From NCBI GenBank assembly GCA_018398765.1, contig JAHBMJ010001381.1:1-27500 (forward strand): a stretch of 27,500 nucleotides of DNA, written 5' to 3'. Position 1 is the first letter of the stretch; every line of letters starts with the position of its first letter. The position numbers and the translations under genes were made by a program. Below the pieces are notes generated by a model. That model made no database searches, was not told the DNA's origin, and was given only the letters and a program-made list of their open reading frames with translations. Of the stretch, positions 8,815 through 24,712 are shown piece by piece. Source of the stretch: Chromera velia. Taxonomy: Eukaryota > Sar > Chromeraceae.

Positions 8815-8929
8815 ATGAATGCTGTATTGGGGGATACAACCGATTATCTGTTCAGTCTCTTCGGTACATACCGATACATGTGTCGATCATTGTCCCTTGC
8901 AGTTGTTCTGCGAAGTCTCCCCACTTCAG
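8815..8929 (+). CDS. First exon of the receptor-like gene, possible signal peptide
   Basis: ATG 8815 reads 38 codons and ends phase 1 at ACTTCAG|gtctgc. The intron runs to the strong acceptor tgcctttacag ending at 9128. An internal in-frame ATG at 8878 would give MCRSLSLAVVLRSLPTS, a short basic-hydrophobic leader. An alternative ATG at 8819 reads straight through the intron in the downstream frame, but the inserted residues look non-coding and the splice signals are good. A signal peptide is expected because the downstream modules are extracellular types. Confidence 0.5.
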
Positions 8930-9978
8930 GTCTGCCTCATTAGAGCAGAGGTGACCGTTTTTGTTGTTCACCGATGGATCTGCCCGTATTTTGTGCTCTT
9001 ATGCCCGAATGGGGACAGATGGCATTTGAGTTCCAAGCTTCCTCAGGAACGGATGCATGTATATATACAACATGTCGTCAATCTTCTTTTCCCATGTCAA
9101 TTGCTTATTTATTCGCTTGCCTTTACAGTGATAGGTCCAGTCGTTGTTGATGGAACAGCAGTCGGTGGCACTCTGGAAGAATTGACGCACGCGGCGAGCG
9201 CTGTGCCGCGGAAGGGAGGAGGGGGTCACGCAACCGGAAGAGAGAACTTGAAGGCAGCTGCAGGGACTCAGCGCAGACGGCTGTGGGACGCGACCACCGT
9301 TCTGTCTTCCTCGTACCTGACGGGGTCGAACGGTTTTTATGTTGCCGGAGTGACGTCACAAGGAAACCTGGGGGGAGCCTCGGGGATTACCACGGTCGGA
9401 GATGTGAACAATGACGGTGTGGACGATTTTATTCTGGGGGAAGGCGGGGCGGGGAATGCGTATGTGATTTTTGGACGAGATTGGAAGTCTTCGAGCTTCC
9501 CTGCCGAGATTGACTTGAGCACTCTGGATGGCACAAATGGGTTCAAGATCATTGGGAGTACGAGCACCCTGTTTGCATGGACTTTTGGCACAGGGGGTGG
9601 GGACTTCAACAACGATGGCATTGCAGACATCATCATCGGAGCTGCTGAAGAAAGTGAGTTGGTGTTGGTGTGTCTGTCCGGAAGATCATCGACAAGCGAA
9701 AGGCCCTTCAACATTCGCATCCATTCATTCATTCATTCATTCATTCATTTGTGTGTCCACGCAAACGGCAGTGTTCCGGACACCTTCTTCGAACAACTTC
9801 CTGCGGTTTAGCATTCAAGCAAAGAAGTAAAGCCGCAGTGTCGTTTGATGGATCCCCGAGAGCTTATCCCACAAATGATGCAGAGAGAAAAGAGTTGCCA
9901 GGATCTGGGGAGGTTGGCATGCAGGTTTTTCTGTCTTCGCTTTTTTTTTGCGTACATGCTTTTCTGTGTATCCATCGA

Positions 9979-10012
<34 letters not shown>

Positions 10013-13000
10013 GTCTGTTGAAAAGAAGCAAGAAAAAAAAGTCATTTCGTTTGCCTGTCTGTTTTTGCTATGCCTATCTTCTGTCTCAGCCGTATTCCCT
10101 GAATTCCTGCCTGAGGAGGATCGAGATCTTCTCCTTAATCGGTGCAAAGCTCTTTCCGATGTTCCCAATACCCTCAAAAGTATCCAATAGATGCCCAAAA
10201 GGACAAAAATTAAGTGAACAAAGACATACGTAAGTCGGATGGCTGTTTCTGTGTCCATCTGCCGATCCCGAGCTCAAACTCTAATTTGCATCTAGGCCGA
10301 AAACCTGTGTGTATACCCATCTTCTGAGTGAACATGTACACGAGTTCACTTGCAAAGATACATACACCTCTTGAGTGTTTGACGCGTCTGCTGTCTCCAC
10401 AACCCCGCAGATGTTTCCGGGGCTACCGGTTCCAACAACGGTAAAATCTACTTGATCTTTGGCAAGGCTTCGTGGTCGGCGACTGTCACTGCTTCCGCGT
10501 TGAGCGGGTCAGACGGGGTAATCTTTAACGGAGTCGGGGACGGGTCGCGACTTGGATTCGGAGTCGGCAACGCTGGAGACGTGAATGGAGATGGGATCGA
10601 CGATATTACTTTCACGGCCTATCGAACAAGTCTGTATCTTTTTGTCTGAGTCGTCCTCCAGCTGTTGTTGTTCATCTCTGTCTGTTTCTCTGTGCTTGTG
10701 TCCGTCTCTGTGTGTCTTTGTCTGTCTCGATCTGTCCCCGTCCATCGCCCATGTAGCAATGTATTTTTCCTCTCTCTGTGCGCGCCTGCATCTGAGAAAT
10801 CTTCTGCTCACGGAGGCACAAATTTTTACAGGTGGATCTGTTTGTGTGTGTTCTTGGTTTGCACGTGACTTTTTTGCATCGACCTGTTGAATGCAGATCA
10901 AGGCGGCACCGATAGCGGCGCGGTGTTTGTCTACTTCGGCAAGAGCTCCGGGTGGACGTCTCCGATAACGGTGACAGGGAGCATCATGGACGGAGTCGTG
11001 GGGTTCCGTATCAACGGGGAGGCGGGGGACCAGCTGGGTGTGGAGATGGCGGGGAACGTTGACATCAACAACGACGGGATCAAAGACATTATCTTTTCCG
11101 GATGGATAGCCGGTAGGTAGGTCAGTCAGTAAAGTAATTAAGTAAGGCAGGCGTGCAGGGACCAAGTGAGGAATTCAGTGAATGAATGAATGAGTGAGTG
11201 AGTGAATGAGTGAAGGACGGAAGTAGTCTGTGGGTGAAGAGTGAGCAGGGAAGGAAAAGGCAAATGAGAGAGGGTGCGTGGGTGCGGGTGTGGGTGAACG
11301 AGTGAATGAGTGTGCTGGAGAGTGTGCTAGAGAGTAACTAAAAAGGAGTGGGGAGGGAGAGAGGGAGTTGACGAGACTGGCTAAGTGAGTTAGGGATTGA
11401 GCCAGTGAAAAACTGCGTCGAACTTTCAGATAAGCAAAATACAGCCCCAATCTTTTTCTGGATTGCCACGTGCTTGCATTCTTCAATAGTATTATCGGAA
11501 AAGGTGAAGTACATTACGTCTTTCCGAGAGACTTCTCCGCATGCATGTCTAAGCAGAAAGACGCTGGGCAGCTTCTGAAAGTTTCTTGCATGCCGAAAGA
11601 CATACAAAATAAAAAAGGTTTTTTGAAAAGCGCGGTCGGCTCTTGCTTCGTACATTGTCTCCAAGCGCTGGACGCTTCAGAAGCGGAAATTGACCGATGG
11701 CGATGGAGTAAGAGGAACATGCCCATGAGGATGTGCGTGTGTGTACGTATTTCCGTGTGGACATGCATTGTGTTTTTGCAGATCCTGTGAGCAGCAATGA
11801 AGGAAGGGTGCACGTGTTCTACGGCAAGTCTTCCTCCACCTTCAGCGGGACCTACTCCGTGACAGACATTGACGGCACGAACGGGTTCACAGTCAACGGA
11901 GTGGTAACAGAAGGACGGCTTGGCTCTGTCGTTGCGGGCCTGGGAGACGTCAACGGAGACGGAATCGACGATTGGATTGCTGGCGCTTATCTCTCCAGTG
12001 AGTGGGCCGGACTTTCTTTTTTGTTTGTCATGCAGAGAATTTCCCTCCTCTTTTCTCAGGCTACTTCTCATCAGCTCTCTTCTCTCTGTGTGTGCGCTGG
12101 CTTTCGTGTTGTACTTGCAGCACCTGAAAGCCTCTCGTCTGCCGGGGAGGCCGTTGTAATTTTTGGAAGTTCTGACTTTTCTGCTCTAGATGCGGCGGAC
12201 GGAAGCACCGACGGCAAGTGGAAGGTCGACGCTTTGGATGGCAGCAACGGGTTCCGTTTTTATGGAACAGCAGCCAACGACAACGCCGGGGTGGACGTTC
12301 AGGGACCTGGAGACGTCAACGGAGACGGCGTGAATGATATTCTGATCTCCTCTGTTGCCGGTGAGTCATCCAAGTGGTGGTCCTTCCACCGCTGAGAGAG
12401 AGTCTTGTTCGATCGGTACGATTGATTGTCTGTGCGAAATTCAGCGAAATCTGCAGCTGGCGTAATCTTTAGGCAGCCGTGCTGAGAGTTCTGGGGCTCT
12501 GCTTCTTTCTGCAACTGGAGGGCCTGAATCAAAGGCTGAAGCTCACTTTATTTCTCGCCCTCTTCACAAAATCGGGAGATAGAAGAAAGCTGCTCGTAGC
12601 GATATGATGCTCTTTCATTCTCCTGCAGACCCCAACGGCCTGTCAAACGCGGGCGAGGCCTACCTGGTGTTTGGGAGAAAAGTCTCGACAGCGGGAAACT
12701 TCGCGTCCGTCCTCAGACCCTCCGACCTGGACGGCACCAACGGAATCATCTTCCAGGGTTCCGCTGCCGGAGATCAGTCCCAGAATCTTGGAAGGGCCGG
12801 GGACATCAATAAAGATGGTAAGGGAGCGCGCTGTTTGGATGCCTGTACGACGATTTTTTTTTTAAAGGGCAGAGAGGCGAGACAAGGGCTGCGTCGGCTG
12901 CATCGACGTTTGATGTTACTCTCCCTGTGTCTAGTGCACAGATTTTTTTCTAGTCGTGCAACATGCCTTTGCCATTTCATGAGGGATTTCGATTTCAACT

Positions 13001-13201
13001 TTCCTCCTCTTCCTGCAAGGAACCAAATCAAAAGCACCTTCTTGATCGTGCACTCTTATCCCATGAATCGCTTCTGAGCGTCCACTCGTCCTGGGGCGAA
13101 GAAGCAGAGTTCAAAAAATCATCTCCCCGCTATTGCTCCTTCTGCTTCGACTTTACTTTCAGGAGTCAATGACTTCATTGTCGGAGCGCACAAAGCATGT
13201 G

Positions 13202-13233
<32 letters not shown>

Positions 13234-14301
13234 CGCTGTGCATATATGCATGTGTGCTGTGTGTTGTTGCGTCTAGCTCATTCACAAAGGGTGGCTGTCT
13301 CACTTTGATGACGTTTCTGGTAAAACCACAAAGCTTTCACGTTGCCCCGTCTTTTCTGTGTCTGGGAGTGTTCCGGGATCTGAGAAGGAAGGCAGCGTTG
13401 CAATCCAACAAAGCAGGTGAGTGGTGTCGCAGCAACTGTGCTCCGCAAAAACACGATAAAGCAGGCATGTCCCCCCCCTTCTTCCTTTCTCTTCATCTTG
13501 CAGCCCCAAATTCTCTTTCCACCGCCGGAGAGGTGTACGTACTCTTCGGAAGTCCGTCAGTCAGCCCCATCAGCACGCTGTGATCAATTTAGGGTCTCCG
13601 TGTAGTCTCTGTCTGTGAGTGAAGGAAGGTTTAGATTACACCATCGAATCACTCGAGAAATCAAGTCACTTGCAAAACACACAAGCATATTCCCGCACTC
13701 TTGCCTGCTGAGAGCTGTCAAAAACTGGAGCGATTCAAGTGCATCCGAGGGGACACCTAACTTAATTCCCCCCCATGCACCCACCCTAGCTTGTGCTTGC
13801 TCCCTTAATTGCATGCAGAGGCCGATGAGTGCACTTTGGGAACCCATAACTGTCACGCGACACATGCAACATGCACCGACACGGTGAACAGCTTCTCTTG
13901 CACATGCAACTCGGGGTACTCAGGAACGGGAGTTGCTTGCTCGATTTCTTCAAGTCAGTCAGTGAGCGAGTGAGTGAGTGAGGAAGGCACAGAGTGAAGG
14001 AGGGAGTCACCAACTGGCGATTTGCTTCTAGCAGTCTGTGATCATCTCATCTTAAGCTTTACTCACTTGCTTCTCTTAGAATTGATGAAAAACCTTCATT
14101 CTGTGGCCAATTCCTACAATGTACTGTCCATTCGGTCTTCTTTGTTCTCAAAGGATTCAATTCTTCTACCTGTGACTTGGGCTTTCTCTGATTGTTTCGA
14201 CGGTCTGCTGTAGTCAGTCAGTGGGTCCGCTCGTACACTTTGCGAGAGAAGCGTCAGAGGGTCTTTTGACTGATTTGTTCTTTCGTCTGTAGAAGTCTCT
14301 C

Positions 14302-14333
<32 letters not shown>

Positions 14334-17300
14334 TTGTCTGTGGGAGAAGAAGAAACATATAGTCTTTCTGTCTGCAAGAAGAAACATATAGTCTGTCTGT
14401 CTCCATGTGCAGCCTCAACGGTGTGCACTGGGGAAAGTGGCTGTCTTGAGGAGTGGACCTGTGCCAGTTATGGAGACTGTGAGAGACTCATTTCGGAAAC
14501 TGATGGGATTTGCCAATGCGTTGGTAAGTCTGAATGACCTCACTGGATGCATGTCCTCTCGATCGATCGATGGGCTTTGTGAAGGAAGCTGCTCAGGCGT
14601 TGACACATCACAGAGTGCATGGGTAAACTTGTGGCGACCCAATTTGCTTATCATCTGTCCCATTTTACCATTCGCTTGCCCCTCAGGTGTTTTATTCTTT
14701 GCTTCAACCTCCGTGCTTGAATGACCATGTTTTTCTTTCTGCCCTTCTTTCTCGCGCTGATCTCTTCCCTGAATCCGCTTGCGCAGACGTCGACGAGTGT
14801 GCCCTGGGGACCCACGTGTGTCCCTCCATCGCAACCTGCAAGAATACACCGGGAGCCTATGAGTGCGAACTGCCAGAGACAGTTGAGACGTCGACGCTCG
14901 AGGCGGACTCGGGGGAGGATGAGGGGGCAGCGGGGACCGTCCTCCTTCTGAACGTCCGTCAGTCTTCTTCTATCTTCTCCTTTTTTTGTTGTGTCCAGGT
15001 TGGCTGCGTGCTTCCGCGGCCAAGACAGATATCCTGACCCCCCCTTGCTCTCCTTCTGTCTGTTTCTGTCTGCAGTCACTGAAGTCATTTGTTGAGACCA
15101 CCACGGGCACCGGCACAGGGTCGGACGGCTCCACTCCCGCATCCTCCACATCAGAGTCCCTTGCAAGCACCAAGGCAGTTGCGGACAAGATCAGCAGCAC
15201 GATCTCGAACATTCAGAGCAGTGGACGGACGCTGACAAGTGAGGAGACAGAAAGCTTCACCACCGTGCTGGCAACTACAAGCAAGGGTCTGGATTCGCTT
15301 CTTTCGGGGACAGACAGCAGCTCTCTCAGCCAAAACCAGAAAGACTCGCAAACATCCGAAATTACAAACTCTGTGACCGCGGTCGGTGATCATGTTTGTT
15401 CGATCGTTTTTGCCGTACATTGAAACGATAGATGTTCCGATCGCAAATTACGAATGACGGGTGCTGGCAGACTGTCGGCGCTCGAACAACTCTTTCAGCT
15501 CTCGTTTTATCCAGTCAAAAAGTCTTTTTCTACCGTTCCCTTAATATTGGTTTTGGTGCCGTTACCATGTCATTCCGTCCTCCCATCTGGCCAGCCCCCC
15601 CCCTCTCTGTGTGCAGCTTGCGTTCTTTATCTCTTTCCGTCTGTCCCTTTTCTCTTCTGTGTGTGTGCAGCTTGCCTCCTCTCTCTCTGCCGTCGTCTCC
15701 CGGTCTTCCTCTGTGCCCAAGTCCCGATCGGGAAAGTCTCTGGTCGGTTCCCAGCTTCCAGTGCTGTCCTCCCTCGAGAAGACGCTGCAGTCCGCCTCCG
15801 CAGACGCGGGAGTGACGGCGGGAGGAGACGCCTCGGGGGCCAACGGCACTGCTCTGGCATCGAGAAGGAAGGAGTTGCAGAGTGCGACAGACAGCGTGAT
15901 CAAGACAGCGACCGCATCAATCGGTCAGTGGGCAGACAGAGACTAACTGACCGATTGTATCAGTGAGGGTAAGGGGGGCTGTGCTGGAAGAGGGTAAGAG
16001 TGTCTTGAAAACCTGTCGTGCCTTCAGATCGCCTGCCGCAGGCATGGAATAGCCAAGTCACGCTCATGTGTCTGGCTGTATCTTCTTGCACGGGCAGCTT
16101 CGTACACTAATTCACAGCACCCTTTGCTTCACATAACCTCCTGTTGTTTGTTCAAGTGGCCCGATTTTTTCTTGCTCTTGCAGCTCCGCTTGTTTTGCGT
16201 CAAGCCACTTCGAGTGGCTCCTCAGTGATGTCCACGGATTCGTTCTCCGTCGCGGCGACGGCTCTTCCGAGTCCTACTGCGGTTGCGGACGCGCGGTCTC
16301 TGAGTGCGGAGGTGGGACCTCTGTCTATCTCTTTGAAGTCGTTCTCAGATGCTACCGCAGAGAGGTTGAGGGCCCTCGCAGGAACTTGCGGGGACTCTGA
16401 CCAGGCTTTCCTCGGTCTGGCTGTGGTCACGTGGGGAAGCGATGTGAGGAACTACGTGGGAGGGACAGCGAAGTTTGGGGCCTCTCAGTCTGTACGCCTT
16501 ATGTGGTGCGGGGAGGACGTGGGCGCTCGGGTGTTTGGGTCCGACCAAATGTCCGTGACTGTCGGGGGGCTCCAGGGAGCGGGGGGGGACGGGAGCGGTA
16601 ATCGTCGTCGTCGTCGTTTGAGTTCTTCTGTGGAAGAGGAGGGAGGCTGCTCGTCTTTTGATGGCGAGAACGATCAGTGGAGCTCTCTTTGCAAGAGCGT
16701 AGCGGGGGGTGGGTGTGAGTGTGAGGGTGCGGGTGCAGGGCTGATGGAGACGGAGTTTGGAGAGGCGATTGGAGATGTGGCGAGCATCTTGGCTGGAGCA
16801 GATCTGTCGGTGCTCTGGCAGTTCGACAGGGCAAGAGAGGGGGCGACGATTGACAATGCGCTGCTGTGGGTGGTCGGTGCTCTTCTGGGAGGTTTCCTTC
16901 TTCACATACTCATGTAGGTCTGCACGTTTGGCGTCGCTTAATTGCATTGTTTTTGATCCATACAATCACCATGATGCCTCTTGACATAACCCTTATCCTT
17001 TTCTGATTTTTTCTTCGCGTTGCTTGTCTGATTTCTTCTTCGCGTTGCTCCCCGTTGACATGCTCCTCTCTGTCCTCCCACTCCCTCCTTTCGATCGATC
17101 CCCTTTGCAGAGCCATCTGGCGAGACCGATGCTCCCCCCGGACCTCTATGTCGGTCGTCGAGGCCGCGTGTCTGAACACGAAGGCAGTTCTTGCAGCTGC
17201 GTGGGAGAACCGCCATCAGATGAACATGTGCTCCTTCGAGTTTGTCTCCGAACAAATCGAGAAGATGGTCACCGAAGGAGACACGGGACTCCGCGACCGC

Positions 17301-18139
17301 TATCAGCACCCCTTCTCCAGCGACTGTGCCTACCCTCTCAACACCCCCCCCCAGACGGCAGAAGCAGAAGAAGCAGAAAGCAACGACGCAGCTGTGTCAG
17401 GGGAGTTGGGAGATTCCCTAGACCTCCAGGCGCTCTCCTTCCGGCAGACAGACCTAGTGGCCCTTCTCACTGCAGACGCGCAGAAGGTCCTCGCTCAGGG
17501 GGTCAGGGGCACCCGGAATTTGGAGAGGGGGCAAGAGGCAGTCGTCATCACTCCTGAAGTCGCCCTTATTGAGGACAGAAATCACTCATGTGATTCCACT
17601 AGAAAAGGGAATGTCCCCCTTCGTCCTCCCCTTCATGCGCCCCTGTGGGACCCCCGACCGCCTCCCGTTCTTCCTTTCAGCCTCCGTCTGTCTCTCTCTG
17701 CACGCTGGCGCCGAGATTTGATTGTCGAACCGTTTGGCGATGCAGACTGGCAACTCCTCTCTGCTGCCCGTTTCCTGATTTGTTCGGGGCACTTCAAACG
17801 ACGCTTAGAGTTCCTTGCAGAGAGACAGGCGAGTCGGTACAGAATGCTTGAAACCCTAGTCAGATCATGGCTGGTGAGAAAAGGACTGCGGAAGTCCGAC
17901 AGCTTTCTTCCGTCCGAAAAGAGAAAGGGACAGACAGCTCCAAACATGACATTTTGTGCCAATCTTCGGGGATTTCTTCTTCCTTGGCCCGCAGCCTGCC
18001 CTCCCATCGGCAGCGGGGAGTTGTATCAGACTCAGATTGTGTCCGCAGATGGGCAAAGTTACGTCCAGAAGACAAAAGATTTGACGGTCCTGTTGACCAT
18101 CGGATCCTCTTTCCTTCAGGTGTGTCCCTCCGTGTTCCT

Positions 18140-18175
<36 letters not shown>

Positions 18176-18236
18176 GTCTTTCTGTCTTTCTGTCTGTCTA
18201 TCTGTCTATCTGTCTATCTGTCTATCTATCTATCTA

Positions 18237-18285
<49 letters not shown>

Positions 18286-19786
18286 TTGTCTGTCTATTTG
18301 TCTGTGTGTTTTTCTGTTTGATGGCAAATACTTATGCAGTTTGACTAGGGCATTTCACTGGCAAGACGATTGAGTGGACGCCTGAAGGTTTGATCAGTCA
18401 CTCCATATGACCAGCACACGTGGTCAGCTGAGACAGTTTCACGATGGCCTCTTCTTTGCACTCTCCATCAACTGATAGACGTAGCATTCAAAGGAAGACT
18501 CATTTCTCTTTTCGGTTGCCTCCCTCTTTGCATCCCCGGCCTGCGCAGATAAGAGCCTTCTCCCGGCAACACGACCTCTCGGTCGCACTGCCGTCACCGA
18601 TGCTTGACAAGTATGGTCTCTTTCTCAGTCCCAATTTGAATCCAGGGAATGGACGCGCGAGGAGCGTCCTCGTGGTGGTCCCTCAGCGCTGCGTGCTTGA
18701 CTCTGGCAGTCGTATCATTTCGGACTCCCGTCTTGCCTCTCGGGACTTTTTGTTTGCTCGAAAGGAGGGGGAAAACGACGCACGCACTCCTGTTCCGCTG
18801 AGAGTCTGGAAAGGGAGACAGACGGGCAAGTCTGCAGAGAAGAAAAACGAGAGGGGGGCAGTGAGGCACCAAAAGCAAGGATCTGTCGAGAGATCAACCT
18901 CCCGACTTTCCCCCTTAGAGGGTGCAGTTGAGTTCCTCGAGGAGTCCCCCCACTGCTCTGTTCTGCGTCTCTTTGTGAGGTGTCCGGAGGCCCCGAGTGG
19001 CGTCGTGGGTCTGGACATGTCGAACGCCCGACCGGTGACAAAAGAAGAGATTGATCAGATCGAGAATGAACAGGGCTCGGGGGCATTTGTTGGCGAGAAA
19101 CACTTTATGGGATCGAGGCAAGGGGAAGGGGTGGAAAAAGGGGGAGGGGTACAAGAGAATCAAGACAGGCGATTTTCCATGAACAAAAAAATGAATCAGA
19201 TTGTCCAAACGATCAACCAATGCAGTGGAGGAGGAGGGAAAGACAGAAAGCATCCTTTCCCAACTCTGGAGGAGTCTCACTGTGAGAAGAGGAGGGTGGC
19301 AGCAGAGGAGACAAAATTTGAAGGACAGACGCAAGGTGTGGAGGAGAGCAGAGAAACCATCGAGGTTCTCTGTCAGATAGCTGATCAATTGTTGCAGTGG
19401 AAACGCGACCGTTCAGCTGCTTTCCGGTCGATGCCTGTTTGGACAAATTTGGGGAAGCAGCTGGAAGAAGACATGAAGAGGTACGTGGGTGTGTGGACAG
19501 AACGAGCGCTCGATATTTGTTCTGCTGTCTAGCTTATCCCCTCTCTCTCTCTCTCACTCTCTCTGTTTCTTTCTTTCTTTCTTTCTTTCTGCCTTTCCGT
19601 GAATCTTTCTTTTTTCGTTCGTCCGTTCGTTCTCTCTCTCTCTCTCTCTCTCTCGTGCGCGCGCCCGCGCGCGGACACAAACACACACACGCACGCACAC
19701 ACGCTCTGGTCTTGGTGTTCGTTCCCATCGCGCACACAGCCCCCGTCAGCCCTTCCGTTCTCCTCTGATGCGTTCGTCTGTGTGAG

Positions 19787-19826
<40 letters not shown>

Positions 19827-20834
19827 TGTGTGTGTGTGTGCAGAATTCGTCCCTTCGGCTGGAGTACCGCTTATTTGGCAGCTCGGCTATTTCTCAGACC
19901 TCTTCAGGTATCTGTGCTCGGCAAAAGTTCCGACAGACACGCAGACGCCCTCATTCCCAGAGCAACTGCTGTGTTGATCTCCTGGACCTCGGCTTTCTCT
20001 TTTCTGTTCCTCTTTGCCTTGTTCTTTGGGGTGCTCTCCGAGGACACCCCCGAGATCAGTGAAGACATGGGGTTCTTGGAGATCCTGTCCGCCGTCGTTT
20101 CCACATTCACGGGGCGCACAATCCTGGCTGCGTTTCTGATCTACGGCCTCACCCTCCCTGTCAGCATGTTGACAGACTTCCTCCTGCGTCCCCGCACTCC
20201 CCAAGTGACAATGCTGAAGAACTTGAGTGAGAAGGCGAGACGGGGGGGGAGGGTCACGGTGGAGGACGCCAATTACTTCTGGGGGTCGAGGGTCTCCACC
20301 TGCAGGCCTCCAGAGGAAAAGGGAAGCTGTTGCTGTCTGAAGAGGGGGGCCTCTGAGAAGAAGGAGAAAGGGCGGCAAAGTCTCACCGCGAATGCCGTTC
20401 AATCTCTCCTCCCCTCCTCGCGTCGTAGGAGGGAAGCGGTGAACTCGCTGGTCGGATGGAGGAGGAAGAAAGTGGGTGAGGAAAGAGAAAAGCGTGTAGT
20501 TGAAGACGGCAGTTCGGAAATGTCGATTTACAGAGCCTCAAAGAAATGGGTTCTTCCAGAGAGCTACCGAGCCTGGTGGCTTTGGAGAAATCACCAGCGA
20601 ACCGTTGGGGGCATCTGTTTTTGCGTCTTTTGGATTCTCCTTTGTGCTTTCTATCTCGTTTGTTTCGCCCTGAACTACCCTGTCAGACCCGCAGACCTCG
20701 CACAGGTCGGCACCACGGTTCTGGGCCTCCTCATTATTCACGGCGTCATTCGGCCCCTTTTTCTTAGCGCAGGGCTCGGCGCTAGTCTGGTTCTCTTGCT
20801 TAGCGTCATGCAGCACCCAGGCACTGATTTGTGA
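8815..20834 (+). CDS. FG-GAP propeller / EGF / GPS-like / polycystin-1-like membrane protein
   Basis: Spliced model: 8815-8929, 9129-9653, 10411-10629, 10897-11112, 11782-11997, 12121-12360, 12629-12817, 13163-13198, 13504-13551, 13819-13953, 14413-14523, 14787-14953, 15076-15381, 15671-15923, 16184-16913, 17111-18119, 18549-19480, 19844-20834. These sum to 6438 nt, an exact multiple of three, with every junction GT-AG and phase-compatible, giving about 2145 residues. Order: weak signal peptide, seven FG-GAP blades (about 70-600), EGF modules (about 600-715), Ser/Thr-rich stalk (about 740-1070), GPS-like Cys box (about 1079-1110), TM1 (about 1150-1170), long cytosolic region (to about 1815), and TM2-TM5 (about 1856-2138). 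The C-terminal half resembles polycystin-1 TM1-TM5, where large loops separate TM1 from the TM2/TM3 and TM4/TM5 pairs. It should sit at a surface or ciliary-type membrane with the propeller outside. Least certain are the start, the end of the ninth exon, and whether 17111-18119 hides another intron. Confidence 0.75.
9722..10011. repeat. Intronic microsatellites (ATTC)n and (TCTG)n
   Basis: Within the second intron of the receptor-like gene: (ATTC)n at about 9722-9748 and (TCTG)n at about 9979-10011. The tetranucleotides are the same as those used in intergenic DNA of this window. Confidence 0.9.
11113..11781 (+). other. Intron of the receptor-like gene with GT-rich repeats
   Basis: Starts gtaggtaggtcagtcagt and contains a (GAGT/GAAT)n run at about 11176-11213. 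It ends gtttttgcag at 11781. No coding frame inside shows protein character. Confidence 0.7.
13163..13198 (+). CDS. 36-nt micro-exon completing FG-GAP blade seven
   Basis: After acctttactttcag-type sequence the segment reads GVNDFIVGAHKA and is followed by gtgagtctct. It restores exactly the second half of the DINKDGVND loop whose first half ends the previous exon at 12817 before gtaaggg. Its length is a multiple of three with phase 1 on both sides, so skipping it would keep the frame but remove half of a calcium loop. Confidence 0.75.
13199..13503 (+). other. Intron beginning with a (TC)n tract
   Basis: The donor gtgagtctct runs straight into (TC)n at 13204-13231, and the intron ends cttcatcttgcag at 13503. 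The repeat lies inside the 5' splice-site neighbourhood of the micro-exon. Confidence 0.7.
13819..14953 (+). other. EGF-like module exons
   Basis: Exon 13819-13953 encodes a calcium-binding EGF module: ADECTLGTHNC, then ATCTDTVNSFSCTC, then GYSGTGVAC, with the D-E-C start and six cysteines. Exon 14413-14523 encodes a six-cysteine module with wider spacing (VCTGESGCLEEWTC to DGICQC). Exon 14787-14953 starts DVDECALGTHVC, has ATC and YEC, then stops short at four cysteines and runs into an acidic Glu/Asp-rich linker, so it is a half module. Boundaries are phase 1 up to the last exon, which leaves in phase 0. These modules would form a stalk between the propeller and the membrane-proximal region. 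Confidence 0.8.
14302..14341. repeat. Intronic (TGTC)n microsatellite
   Basis: A (TCTG)n/(TTTG)n run in the intron between the first two EGF exons. It is followed by a duplicated 23-bp-class unit, agaagaaacatatagtc at about 14346-14362 and again at about 14378-14394. Confidence 0.85.
15076..16913 (+). other. Ser/Thr-rich stalk, GPS-like cysteine box and TM1
   Basis: Exons 15076-15381, 15671-15923 and 16184-16913 encode long Ser/Thr/Ala-rich helices (for example SLASTKAVADKISSTISN) resembling the GAIN/REJ-like juxtamembrane region of polycystin-1 and adhesion receptors. A run of five arginines encoded by cgt repeats (about 16601-16616) precedes a cysteine box: GGCSSFDGENDQW, SSLC, then GGGCECEG. 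The spacing C..W..C..C-x-C fits a GPS motif, but the HL(S/T) cleavage triplet is absent. A hydrophobic helix (LLWVVGALLGGFLLHIL) follows and the exon leaves in phase 2 at CTCAT|gtaggt. Confidence 0.6.
17111..19480 (+). other. Large cytosolic insert between TM1 and TM2
   Basis: Segments 17111-18119 and 18549-19480 encode about 650 residues without hydrophobic helices, rich in Arg, Glu and Ser. The polycystin-1 family carries a PLAT/LH2 domain at this position. I cannot see a clear PLAT signature, although the stretch ELYQTQIVSADGQSY is compatible with beta structure. The end TTCCTTCAG|gtgtgt at 18119 and the acceptor ctgcgcag ending 18548 join in phase 0. Between 17585 and 18000 the composition is odd (Pro/Arg/Ser-rich, pyrimidine tracts ending in ctttcag near 17680 and cccgcag near 17994). 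A small unspliced-looking intron may be hidden there. Confidence 0.5.
18143..18305. repeat. Intronic (TCTG/TCTA/TTTG)n microsatellite
   Basis: About 160 bp of TCTG, TCTA and TTTG units right after the donor at 18120. Read as protein it gives an artefactual Ser-Val-Cys-Leu repeat. Confidence 0.95.
19481..19843 (+). repeat. Intron packed with (TC)n, (CA)n and (TG)n repeats, ending at the splice acceptor
   Basis: After the donor gtacgtgggt the intron carries (TC)n and (TTTC)n at about 19540-19590, (TC)n at about 19630-19654, (CA)n-like sequence at about 19673-19702 and (TG)n at about 19793-19840. The last repeat runs directly into CAG|AATTCG. The usual pyrimidine tract is therefore replaced by UG repeats. 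Confidence 0.85.
19844..20834 (+). other. Polycystin-1-like TM2-TM5 exon
   Basis: The exon opens directly after a (TG)n tract and CAG. Four hydrophobic segments follow: VLISWTSAFSFLFLFALFF, ILAAFLIYGLTLPVSML ending in TDFLLRPRTP, GGICFCVFWILLCAFYLV, and a long VLGLLIIHGVIRPLFL helix. The pairing, the acidic loop between TM2 and TM3, the Pro in TM3 followed by basic residues, and the WWLWR lead before TM4 parallel the TM2-TM5 part of polycystin-1. The frame stops at TGA 20832-20834, before any channel-type TM6-TM11 or polycystin TOP domain. No further exon is evident in the AT-rich sequence downstream. Confidence 0.65.
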
Positions 20835-23199: not shown

Positions 23200-24089
23200 G
23201 GTCCAATCTTTGCCGTCTTTAGCCGTCTTTGTTTTCTTCTGCCGTCCCCGCCGTGTGCTAGGCCGTGTGCAAGTCACTCTCTACTTACCATGCCCTTCTC
23301 TACATCACGTCTGTCTGCTGAGTTCCCTTCATTTTCCTCTCTTTCTTCCTGTCCTCCCCTACCTGTAGGCATAACGCATGTATACAGTAAAAAGATGACC
23401 TGTGGCCGTCAATGAAGATGCAATAGCGGAGATGGTCAGTCTGCATCATGACGATCTTTTGCTTCATAGAGATACGTCTGTCGGGTGGAAAATCAAAGTA
23501 AAGACGCATGAAGATATCTTTGGCTGGTTTTGAACCGACTTGTATGGTATTCTTCCAGGTGGCCTTATGCCTCTGTCTGTCTGGCTGTGAGCGTCACTGA
23601 GCTCCCTGGCCGTCTCCCTTCCGACTGACCTCTCTGCCATAGGACGAAGGGGTTAAACTTTCCGGTCCCACCCTATACTAACACAAGTAAGGCTAGAGGG
23701 CGGATGAAAAGTGAGAGATCCCCTATAAAAGAGGCAACCCGACAGGCTACGCTCCGACTTTTTGTCTGACTTTCTTGCCTCTGACTTTTTTTTGGCATTC
23801 TTAAGTACTATAGTGTTCAATCATGTCTGCTGATACTCCCCAACATGTCTGCCGATAACTTTGACACCCTCTGCCTCACTCCAACTTTGTGACCCACATG
23901 ACTTGATGCACAACTGTCTGATGGCTTCTTTGCCGTCTCTCTCTGTCTTTTTTTGGACTGACCATTGCTTTCCTAAAGCAGAGTTTCTCAGTAGTTGGAC
24001 TTGTGCATATACGTGTGTCTGCAGGTATTAAGCACAGACAGAGAGAAGCGTCAGAGTGTGAAGCGCTGTGGGTGTCAAGAAAGGACCTA
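23200..24089. other. Non-coding sequence with a TATA-like word
   Basis: No protein feature is seen. A consensus-like ctataaaag lies at 23723-23731 on the plus strand, followed by repeated tctgacttt words near 23757-23790. It could be the promoter of an LTR or of an unrecognised transcript, but I found no matching second LTR copy in the window. Confidence 0.3.
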
Positions 24090-24712
24090 ATAGATCCACA
24101 TGGTTGGGGTAGATTCTAATATGAAAATAACCGTCTTGTAGATCGCACTTTGCCATATACGACCCGGGTTTAAGACCCCTTAACCCATGTCGAATCGACG
24201 ATAACCCTATCACCGTGTCTTGGGTGGCATCGTTTATATCTGAGGCCGTCATATCAATAATGATCCTTGGCTGTCCTGATTGTTTTGGCACCGCTCCAAT
24301 CGGTAATACAATGTGTAGTTTTCTCTCACACCTCTCAATAATGCCTTCTCTTTCCAGTCTTTCCAACTCTTGTTTCACTTTGCTCCCAAAGTCAAAGAGG
24401 GATGTATAGTTTTTCAACATAGTCTCCGACGGCCAAATCTTTAGTGAGATTTTGAACCTCTCTCCCAACTTTTGTACCACCGTAGCATCCATGCCTAACT
24501 CAACCATGACTTTTGGTTTTAATGCTGGACCTTTGTCCCATTTTGCTACGGCTGGCCATCCCAGTGGAGTCCCTACCAGTGGGCTCAGTACTACCCATTT
24601 TCCTAACTGCATCGGCCATTTTCCTTCTAATATTGGTAATGGATTACCTTTCTGCGTGAAGGTAACGTCTCCTTCTTTCCATGCTTCTGCTACCTGTGCC
24701 AATGCCGTCGCT
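24090..24712 (-). pseudogene. Reverse transcriptase fragment of a retroelement
   Basis: The minus-strand frame contains reverse-transcriptase landmarks in order: VKQELERLEREGIIERC, then LPIGAVPKQSGQPRIIIDM (finger-region Arg and Asp), LSSIRHGLRGLKPGS, and MAKCDLQDGYFHIRI with the first catalytic Asp of the palm, then NHVDLLG. It then loses similarity and stops near 24028, before the YxDD box, so the catalytic core is incomplete. The frame opens after a TAA near 24713 with no ATG at the expected place. The phrase 'DL.DGYFHI.I.P.H..LLG' is nearest to Ty3/DIRS-type elements. I cannot separate those two from sequence reading alone. Confidence 0.8.

Follow-up and report, generated by a model that had tools for sequence, protein, structure and literature searches.

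The window analysed here is a stretch of 27,500 nucleotides (nt) of Chromera velia DNA (contig JAHBMJ010001381.1, positions 1 to 27,500, assembly GCA_018398765.1). It carries on the forward strand a gene model of 18 exons (8815-20834), whose product would join an FG-GAP propeller, EGF modules, a stalk, a box resembling the GPS domain and five transmembrane (TM) segments. The model was rebuilt from the sequence and gave 6438 nt of coding sequence and 2145 residues with no internal stops, 17 GT-AG introns out of 17 and consistent phases throughout. This reproduces exactly the coding sequence of a preliminary description, made from the letters of the window, with exon 1 as its doubtful part. The features are displayed in Table 1, where other contigs of the genome are given as C and a number.

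Evidence for one gene and its limits

According to the preliminary description, the propeller and EGF part and the membrane part belong to one chimeric gene. Genome-wide contig searches showed that the window, C564, C3862 and C693 share one arrangement on a single strand: the propeller, the EGF modules, the exon with TM1 and the exon with TM2 to TM5 (TM2-5), in this order. C693 is only 35% identical to the window in TM2-5, yet it keeps the domain order. These four loci are a lower bound, with 135 of 1142 candidates scored in one of the searches. Two more contigs, C1880 (propeller and EGF, near the contig start) and C1532 (EGF-like to TM2-5, near the contig end), look like the halves of a fifth copy. 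Moreover, the TM1 and TM2-5 exons are paired in the same order and strand on 14 of the 15 other contigs with a strong TM1-exon match (E < 1e-10), the exception being C3163, where the match lies at the contig edge. By a rough chance expectation, 0.01 same-strand FG-GAP clusters would be found upstream of 14 such loci, a figure that serves only as a guide given that the copies are not independent.

Purifying selection was estimated for exons 12, 13 and 15-18. These exons gave w values of 0.08-0.38 against the nearest copy, C1532, and exon 18 gave 0.14 against C564 and 0.13 against C3862. Together with the paralogous loci and the exon-9 donor considered below, this selection in the downstream exons supports the view that the window holds one nuclear gene.

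The exon-9 donor is the place where two adjacent genes would be separated, namely into a secreted protein with the propeller, terminating at 13583 (VLFGSPSVSPISTL followed by the stop), and a separate EGF/TM receptor. This donor looks weak, and if it is not spliced the propeller frame of the window hits a stop 30 nt on (13581-13583). In addition, FG-GAP arrays occur on contigs without a family match (e.g. C3750, C372, C1603), and in some family members the sequence examined contains EGF modules and lacks FG-GAP. However, that stop is not conserved in C564, the only copy read at this point, whose GT agrees in position and phase (TTCGGA-C|GTCAGT against TTCGGA-A|GTCCGT); its similarity to the window ends at the donor, and its read-through reaches a stop only after 54 codons. 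The exon-9 junction is in phase 1, as are all introns from 1 to 11, and a separate downstream gene would require its own start and signal peptide. Regarding these data and the order kept at four loci, even in the divergent C693, a division into two genes appears contradicted by the paralogues and we consider it quite unlikely. A mis-assembly, or collapsed paralogues, could also have joined unrelated pieces on a contig that is short (27.5 kb), has many simple repeats and has near copies elsewhere, but the same join is present with different spacing on the separate contigs C564, C3862 and C693, and an artefact of this kind is extremely improbable.

The exons of the single gene show a regular arrangement. 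Introns 1 to 11 (8930-14786) form a consecutive phase-1 run over the propeller and EGF exons, and the remaining six introns have phases 0, 0, 1, 2, 0 and 2. A single propeller repeat occupies each of exons 3, 4, 5 and 6, and a single EGF-type module each of exons 10 and 11. Single-module exons flanked by phase-1 introns are the pattern expected under exon shuffling, and phase-1 module shuffling is usually associated with animals; the run in the window is an exon-shuffling-like signature outside them. In the family, the exon phase at the start of EGF modules was tested automatically: of 44 EGF matches, 16 could be given an acceptor, 12 of them in phase 1, and the test is only suggestive because the other 28 had none assigned.

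Concerning the ends of the gene, an ATG at 9053, in the frame of exon 2, is an alternative start that gives a hydrophobic stretch (MHVYIQHVVNLLFPCQLLIYSLAFTVIGPVVV) without exon 1. The sequence begun by this ATG reads MHVYIQHVVNLLFPCQLLIYSLAFTV, and its hydrophobic stretch may be an artefact of a pyrimidine tract, since both coincide. The C693 copy has a signal-peptide-like start in a frame read by eye. At the other end, exon 18 has 14 close paralogues, of which 12 are open in a single frame; C3675 can be read only with two frames, and C107 is interrupted by stops. A common stop after TM5, about 7 residues past a conserved Pro-containing (Q/H)xP motif, is present in the window and 13 of these paralogues (the 12 and C3675). 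As one stop position is common to 14 copies, the gene ends after TM5, without TM6-TM11.

Table 1. Exons and predicted features of the receptor gene in the window (w, estimate against the copy named).
Feature	Position	Strand	Content and remarks
Exon 1 (doubtful)	8815..8929	+	Weak hydrophobic stretch MCRSLSLAVVLRSLPTS; GT-AG and phase fit
Exon 2	9129..9653	+	N-terminal region, FG-GAP repeats 1 and 2
Exon 3	10411..10629	+	FG-GAP repeat 3, phase 1-1
Exon 4	10897..11112	+	FG-GAP repeat 4, phase 1-1
Exon 5	11782..11997	+	FG-GAP repeat 5, phase 1-1; copies in C564, C3862, C1880 63-70% identical
Exon 6	12121..12360	+	FG-GAP repeat 6, phase 1-1; copies in C564, C3862, C1880 67-75% identical
Exon 7	12629..12817	+	Opening portion of FG-GAP repeat 7
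Exon 8	13163..13198	+	36 nt, finishes repeat 7 (VNDFIVGAHKAS); small counterpart exon in C564
Exon 9	13504..13551	+	Final propeller strand (TAGEVYVLFG); donor GTCCGTCA at 13552
Exon 10	13819..13953	+	EGF module 1, phase 1-1; Pfam EGF_CA / EGF_3
Exon 11	14413..14523	+	Six-cysteine EGF-like module, phase 1-1; labelled by eye, no Pfam score alone
Exon 12	14787..14953	+	Shortened EGF_CA module and linker; w 0.08 (C1532)
Exon 13	15076..15381	+	Ser/Thr-rich stalk; w 0.18 (C1532)
Exon 14	15671..15923	+	Ser/Thr-rich stalk
Exon 15	16184..16913	+	Membrane-proximal region, GPS-like box, TM1; w 0.13 (C1532); homologous exon on 15 other contigs, E < 1e-10
Putative degraded GPS box	16648..16758	+	Residues 1081-1117, exon 15; alignment A3
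TM1	16861..16913, continuing to 17117 in exon 16	+	DNxxLW motif just upstream
Exon 16	17111..18119	+	TM1-TM2 loop part 1, predicted cytoplasmic; w 0.21 (C1532); no Pfam family
Exon 17	18549..19480	+	TM1-TM2 loop part 2; w 0.26-0.38 (C1532)
Exon 18	19844..20834	+	TM2 ~19971-20027, TM3 20082-20138, TM4 20613-20669, TM5 ~20697-20810, stop 20832-20834; w 0.13-0.22

Propeller, EGF modules and GPS-like box

Pfam detected FG-GAP (E=1e-25) in six stretches of the first part of the model, and a pattern scan found seven calcium motifs DxNxDGxx(D/N), one per FG-GAP repeat. The propeller had been described as integrin-alpha-style and seven-bladed. Its seven repeats are complete, as in integrin alpha, and the integrin likeness holds only at the level of the repeat family, the full-length relatives being bacterial. 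Integrins were the best matches in a PDB search with the propeller, though weak ones (alpha-IIb, E 1.1e-4, 24 bits over about 165 residues). According to PMC3192720, three or four blades bear the calcium motif in integrins and all seven in bacterial propellers; in the window it is present in each of the 7 repeats. Integrin alpha has a single TM segment, as opposed to five in the window, and the model contains neither GFFxR or a related pattern of the integrin tail (pattern scan) nor any integrin domain other than FG-GAP (Pfam).

Among 499 pattern-bearing stretches of bacterial and archaeal genomes, 131 proved to be relatives, and the 78 loci kept from these were used for phmmer. The best prokaryotic match comes from the cyanobacterium Leptothoe kymatousa and spans the full 506 residues, its best segment being 40% identical (E 1e-80, a value that holds only relative to the candidates); a full-length match was also obtained in Xenococcus, with 36% identity in its best segment. 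The top two proteins, both cyanobacterial, reached 601 and 594 bits as sums over repeats, and single aligned stretches gave 84-170 bits among the ten best-listed bacterial proteins (84 rows passed the threshold). Furthermore, a Nostoc plasmid protein, from one of 6 plasmid records matched, showed 90% query coverage and 39.7% identity. The bacterial seven-repeat propellers share with the window the calcium motif in each blade, whereas the window version is interrupted by phase-1 introns, has four repeats each on its own exon and is fused to EGF modules, stalk and TM segments. Judging by these cyanobacterial scores against the 24 bits of integrin alpha-IIb, with eukaryotic proteins compared from the PDB only, the propeller is of bacterial type. 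Its transfer from bacteria is plausible, and no firmer than that because the eukaryotic comparison was confined to PDB proteins.

The EGF modules of the preliminary description were borne out by Pfam, which detected two EGF_CA stretches within exons 10-12 (E=1.5e-14). The stalk in exons 13-14 contains 38.5% Ser/Thr over 187 residues; it had been called GAIN/REJ-like, and the likeness to REJ was not upheld, as no Pfam family reached the cut-off there.

The box before TM1 had been presented as GPS-like. Pfam gave no GPS match for the window box, and a pattern scan found no HL[ST] cleavage motif in the entire window model. The box was aligned with those of its relatives in a ten-row alignment, A3, made of six degraded or intermediate boxes and four canonical ones, and only the four canonical rows score as GPS in Pfam. 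Compared with the latter, the window retains all four cysteines as well as the Thr of HL|T, lacks His-Leu and has a six-residue insertion. The boxes of C1532, C2471, C3675 and C693 are like that of the window in both features and the box of C182 is intermediate, so that His-Leu is absent in 6 of 6 aligned degraded or intermediate boxes, and the Thr column (T274) is kept. A DNxx(L/M)W motif before TM1 is also kept in the family alignment.

At the genome level, 14 loci have a Pfam-scoring GPS, the window and its close paralogues not being among them, and 7 of the 14 GPS contigs also carry a TM2-5 homologue. In the four contigs that were read (C455, C100, C859 and C185), a canonical GPS lies directly before a TM1 that aligns with the window TM1. 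The A3 profile matches GPS segments of adhesion G protein-coupled receptors (GPCRs) through its canonical members, the best one being ADGRL3 (E 1.2e-6). Because the window box aligns with the Pfam-scoring GPS of relatives at the same place, it can be read as a degraded GPS, and the missing His-Leu and the insertion suggest that self-cleavage was probably lost in the window clade. Adhesion GPCRs likewise carry a modular adhesive ectodomain above the GPS, but they have seven TM segments, whereas the window has five predicted ones, a loop of about 690 residues after TM1 and a degraded cleavage motif, and no 7tm family was matched in the model by Pfam.

Membrane part and comparison with polycystins

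Five hydrophobic segments follow the stalk (TM1 and TM2-TM5). According to our own reading by the positive-inside rule, the N-terminus is outside and the chain probably makes five membrane passes, the TM1-TM2 loop of about 690 residues and a second loop of about 160 residues both being predicted as cytoplasmic. No Pfam family was found in the membrane part at the cut-offs. Within the otherwise variable TM1-TM2 loop there is a conserved block, LRLFVRCPEAPSGVVGLDMS (18963-19022, residues 1644-1663), with close matches in C2471, C693 and C3675, which could possibly be a binding site for a cytoplasmic partner.

The preliminary description had assigned this part to a polycystin-1-like core. A GPS-derived box before TM1, a large loop, TM2-3, a second loop, an LP motif and TM4-5 are common to the window and polycystin-1/PKD1-like proteins, and by eye the Pro in TM3 and the LP motif before TM4 also resemble human PKD1, whose letters were checked against 6a70_B. 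The gene could be a true polycystin-1 member that has lost TM6-TM11, regulating a channel alongside a PKD2-like channel, and Polycystin_dom loci do exist in the genome (C1117, C3827 and C2301), none of them on a family contig. However, similarity in TM2-TM5 was not detected by any of the methods used. PKD1 was not found in the PDB by phmmer with exon 18, by the 13-row profile A1 (the window and its close paralogues except C107 and C3675, 12 of 14) or by the 15-row profile A2 (9 close members and 6 distant ones, without C1532, C3862, C9, C216, C3675 and C107). None of 13 family members matched the polycystin families in Pfam, hhalign against human PKD1 gave a probability of 1.3%, and, in two tests, segment-shuffled sequences with the hydrophobic pattern preserved scored at least as high against PKD1 in 51 of 400 and 130 of 1000 cases. 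These tests are weak, with a single PKD1 sequence that finds only polycystin-1 chains and one chance match when used as a PDB query.

Moreover, the model, which ends after TM5, contains no REJ, PKD, PLAT or channel/pore domain according to Pfam. PKD1 binds PKD2 through specific parts, and the PKD1 parts that contact PKD2 are absent from the window model. Hence, what stands of the earlier assignment is the topology and the order of GPS and TM1; polycystin-1 homology of TM2-TM5 is not demonstrated at the sequence level, the window should not be taken as a demonstrated polycystin, and the reading as a shortened polycystin-1 seems rather unlikely. The mechanosensory role that had been suggested for the membrane base is conjectural.

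Two genome-wide searches are related to this topic. The search for PLAT gave nothing in the controls either, so the absence of PLAT from the genome is not established. The PKD_channel search gave 7 matches, and the one followed up (L006, C3867 43789-44529, reverse strand) turned out to be a relative of voltage-gated calcium/sodium channels. A PF08016 match alone is not readable as polycystin in this genome.

Receptor family, proposed function and context

With matches up to E 0.02 counted, the genome search places the TM2-5 exon on 24 contigs, including the window and the disrupted C107. Seven further contigs have a GPS match with no TM2-5 match, and their membership may or may not hold. A midpoint-rooted tree built from 20 TM2-5 sequences unites the window with 13 close paralogues (100/99), and C182 adjoins this group (90/87). 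The subgroup to which the window belongs, with four copies, is also recovered (100/99), the propeller of C1532 being assumed from C1880, and C693 is placed within the 14-member group without resolution. Long branches meet among the canonical members, as the tool warned. EGF modules without FG-GAP within the 13-20 kb examined were found on C2471, C3675, C182, C100, C859 and C185, and C455 has a weak EGF match only. The genome search gave no FG-GAP match on C276, C3760, C686, C1128, C9 and C216.

Other observations concern particular contigs. C100 and C859 combine a canonical GPS with long EGF arrays (17 and 12 EGF matches, respectively, in the sequence examined). C107 (52509-54473, reverse strand) is probably a decayed, rearranged paralogue: its exon 18 is broken by two in-frame stops, a fragment of FG-GAP lies about 0.8 kb upstream, and the contig gave no match to the TM1 exon. 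FG-GAP arrays are also present on C3750, C372, C1603, C3055, C930, C692, C2716 and C2080, contigs without TM1-exon or TM2-5 match, and they may encode free-standing propeller proteins.

Taking the domain content together, we propose, with a probability of about 0.6, that the window holds one nuclear gene for a large calcium-dependent adhesion receptor, a sensor or adhesion subunit that would be neither an integrin nor an adhesion GPCR, forming one chain on a five-pass base in the window clade. From what is known of these domain families, binding of a ligand (a sugar, the matrix or a neighbouring cell) by the propeller-EGF head would depend on calcium. Relatives whose GPS is intact would cleave themselves into two parts that are not covalently joined, whereas the receptor of the window clade would stay as a single chain because its cleavage motif is degraded. 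Ligand binding or pull could pass via the membrane-proximal domain to the five helices and the two large cytoplasmic loops, which might recruit signalling partners. A sensor or adhesion subunit is likelier than a channel because no pore domain was found in the chain.

Several points weigh against this proposal. The ligand, the force transmission and the loop function are all inferred, and the support for a single gene is drawn from genomic sequence. The exon 1 assignment is uncertain, as are the N-terminus and signal peptide of the window. A five-row profile of the degraded boxes found no GPS in the PDB and gave one MD-1 match (E 0.045), so that the GPS kinship of the degraded box depends on the family alignment; besides, boxes were read for 5 of the 14 copies in the group. 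The cleavage position HL|T still has its Thr, for which reason the loss of cleavage stays an inference. In addition, an AlphaFold single-sequence model of exon 18 alone was unusable (pLDDT 49).

In a wider sense, the family could represent an undescribed class of GPS-derived, five-TM, channel-less receptors with about 24 loci through expansion in a single-celled eukaryote, phase-1 module shuffling outside animals, bacterial-derived propeller modules and one clade without self-cleavage. This is put forward tentatively, as a possibility somewhat short of even odds. If true, integrin-like adhesion heads and adhesion-GPCR-like membrane-proximal domains would have been combined outside the animal line, and phase-1 module shuffling would be active outside animals. 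Since the genome keeps canonical, intermediate and degraded GPS together, the loss of receptor self-cleavage would be testable in one organism.

The combination of propeller, EGF modules, degraded GPS and five passes was not found in the literature searched. The 2011 survey of 47 unicellular-eukaryote genomes reports no seven-repeat FG-GAP domain with its motif (PMC3192720). A search for FG-GAP in Chromera velia returned nothing; polycystin in Chromera velia and FG-GAP with polycystin gave no such protein in the literature searched, whose coverage was partial, and FG-GAP with GPS/GAIN/adhesion-GPCR or alveolates gave none among the matches listed. The words 'polycyst' and 'integrin' are absent from the main text of the chromerid genome paper (PMC4501334), and its extracellular-protein appendix mentions no such receptor. 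A comparable arrangement is that of Ectocarpus Esi0130_0068 (PMC4700764), also from an alga and with a GPS domain before a multi-pass membrane part; in contrast to the window, its ectodomain is REJ, and FG-GAP and EGF do not occur in the text of that paper.

Regarding the rest of the window, Rfam and tRNA scans were empty. An open frame on the reverse strand (24028-24711) resembles a retroelement reverse transcriptase by eye, with no Pfam match, and the segment 21001-22000 is AT-rich (31% GC). Upstream of the receptor gene, a 476-residue open frame on the forward strand (109-1539) matches DUF4419 (E 1.1e-46).

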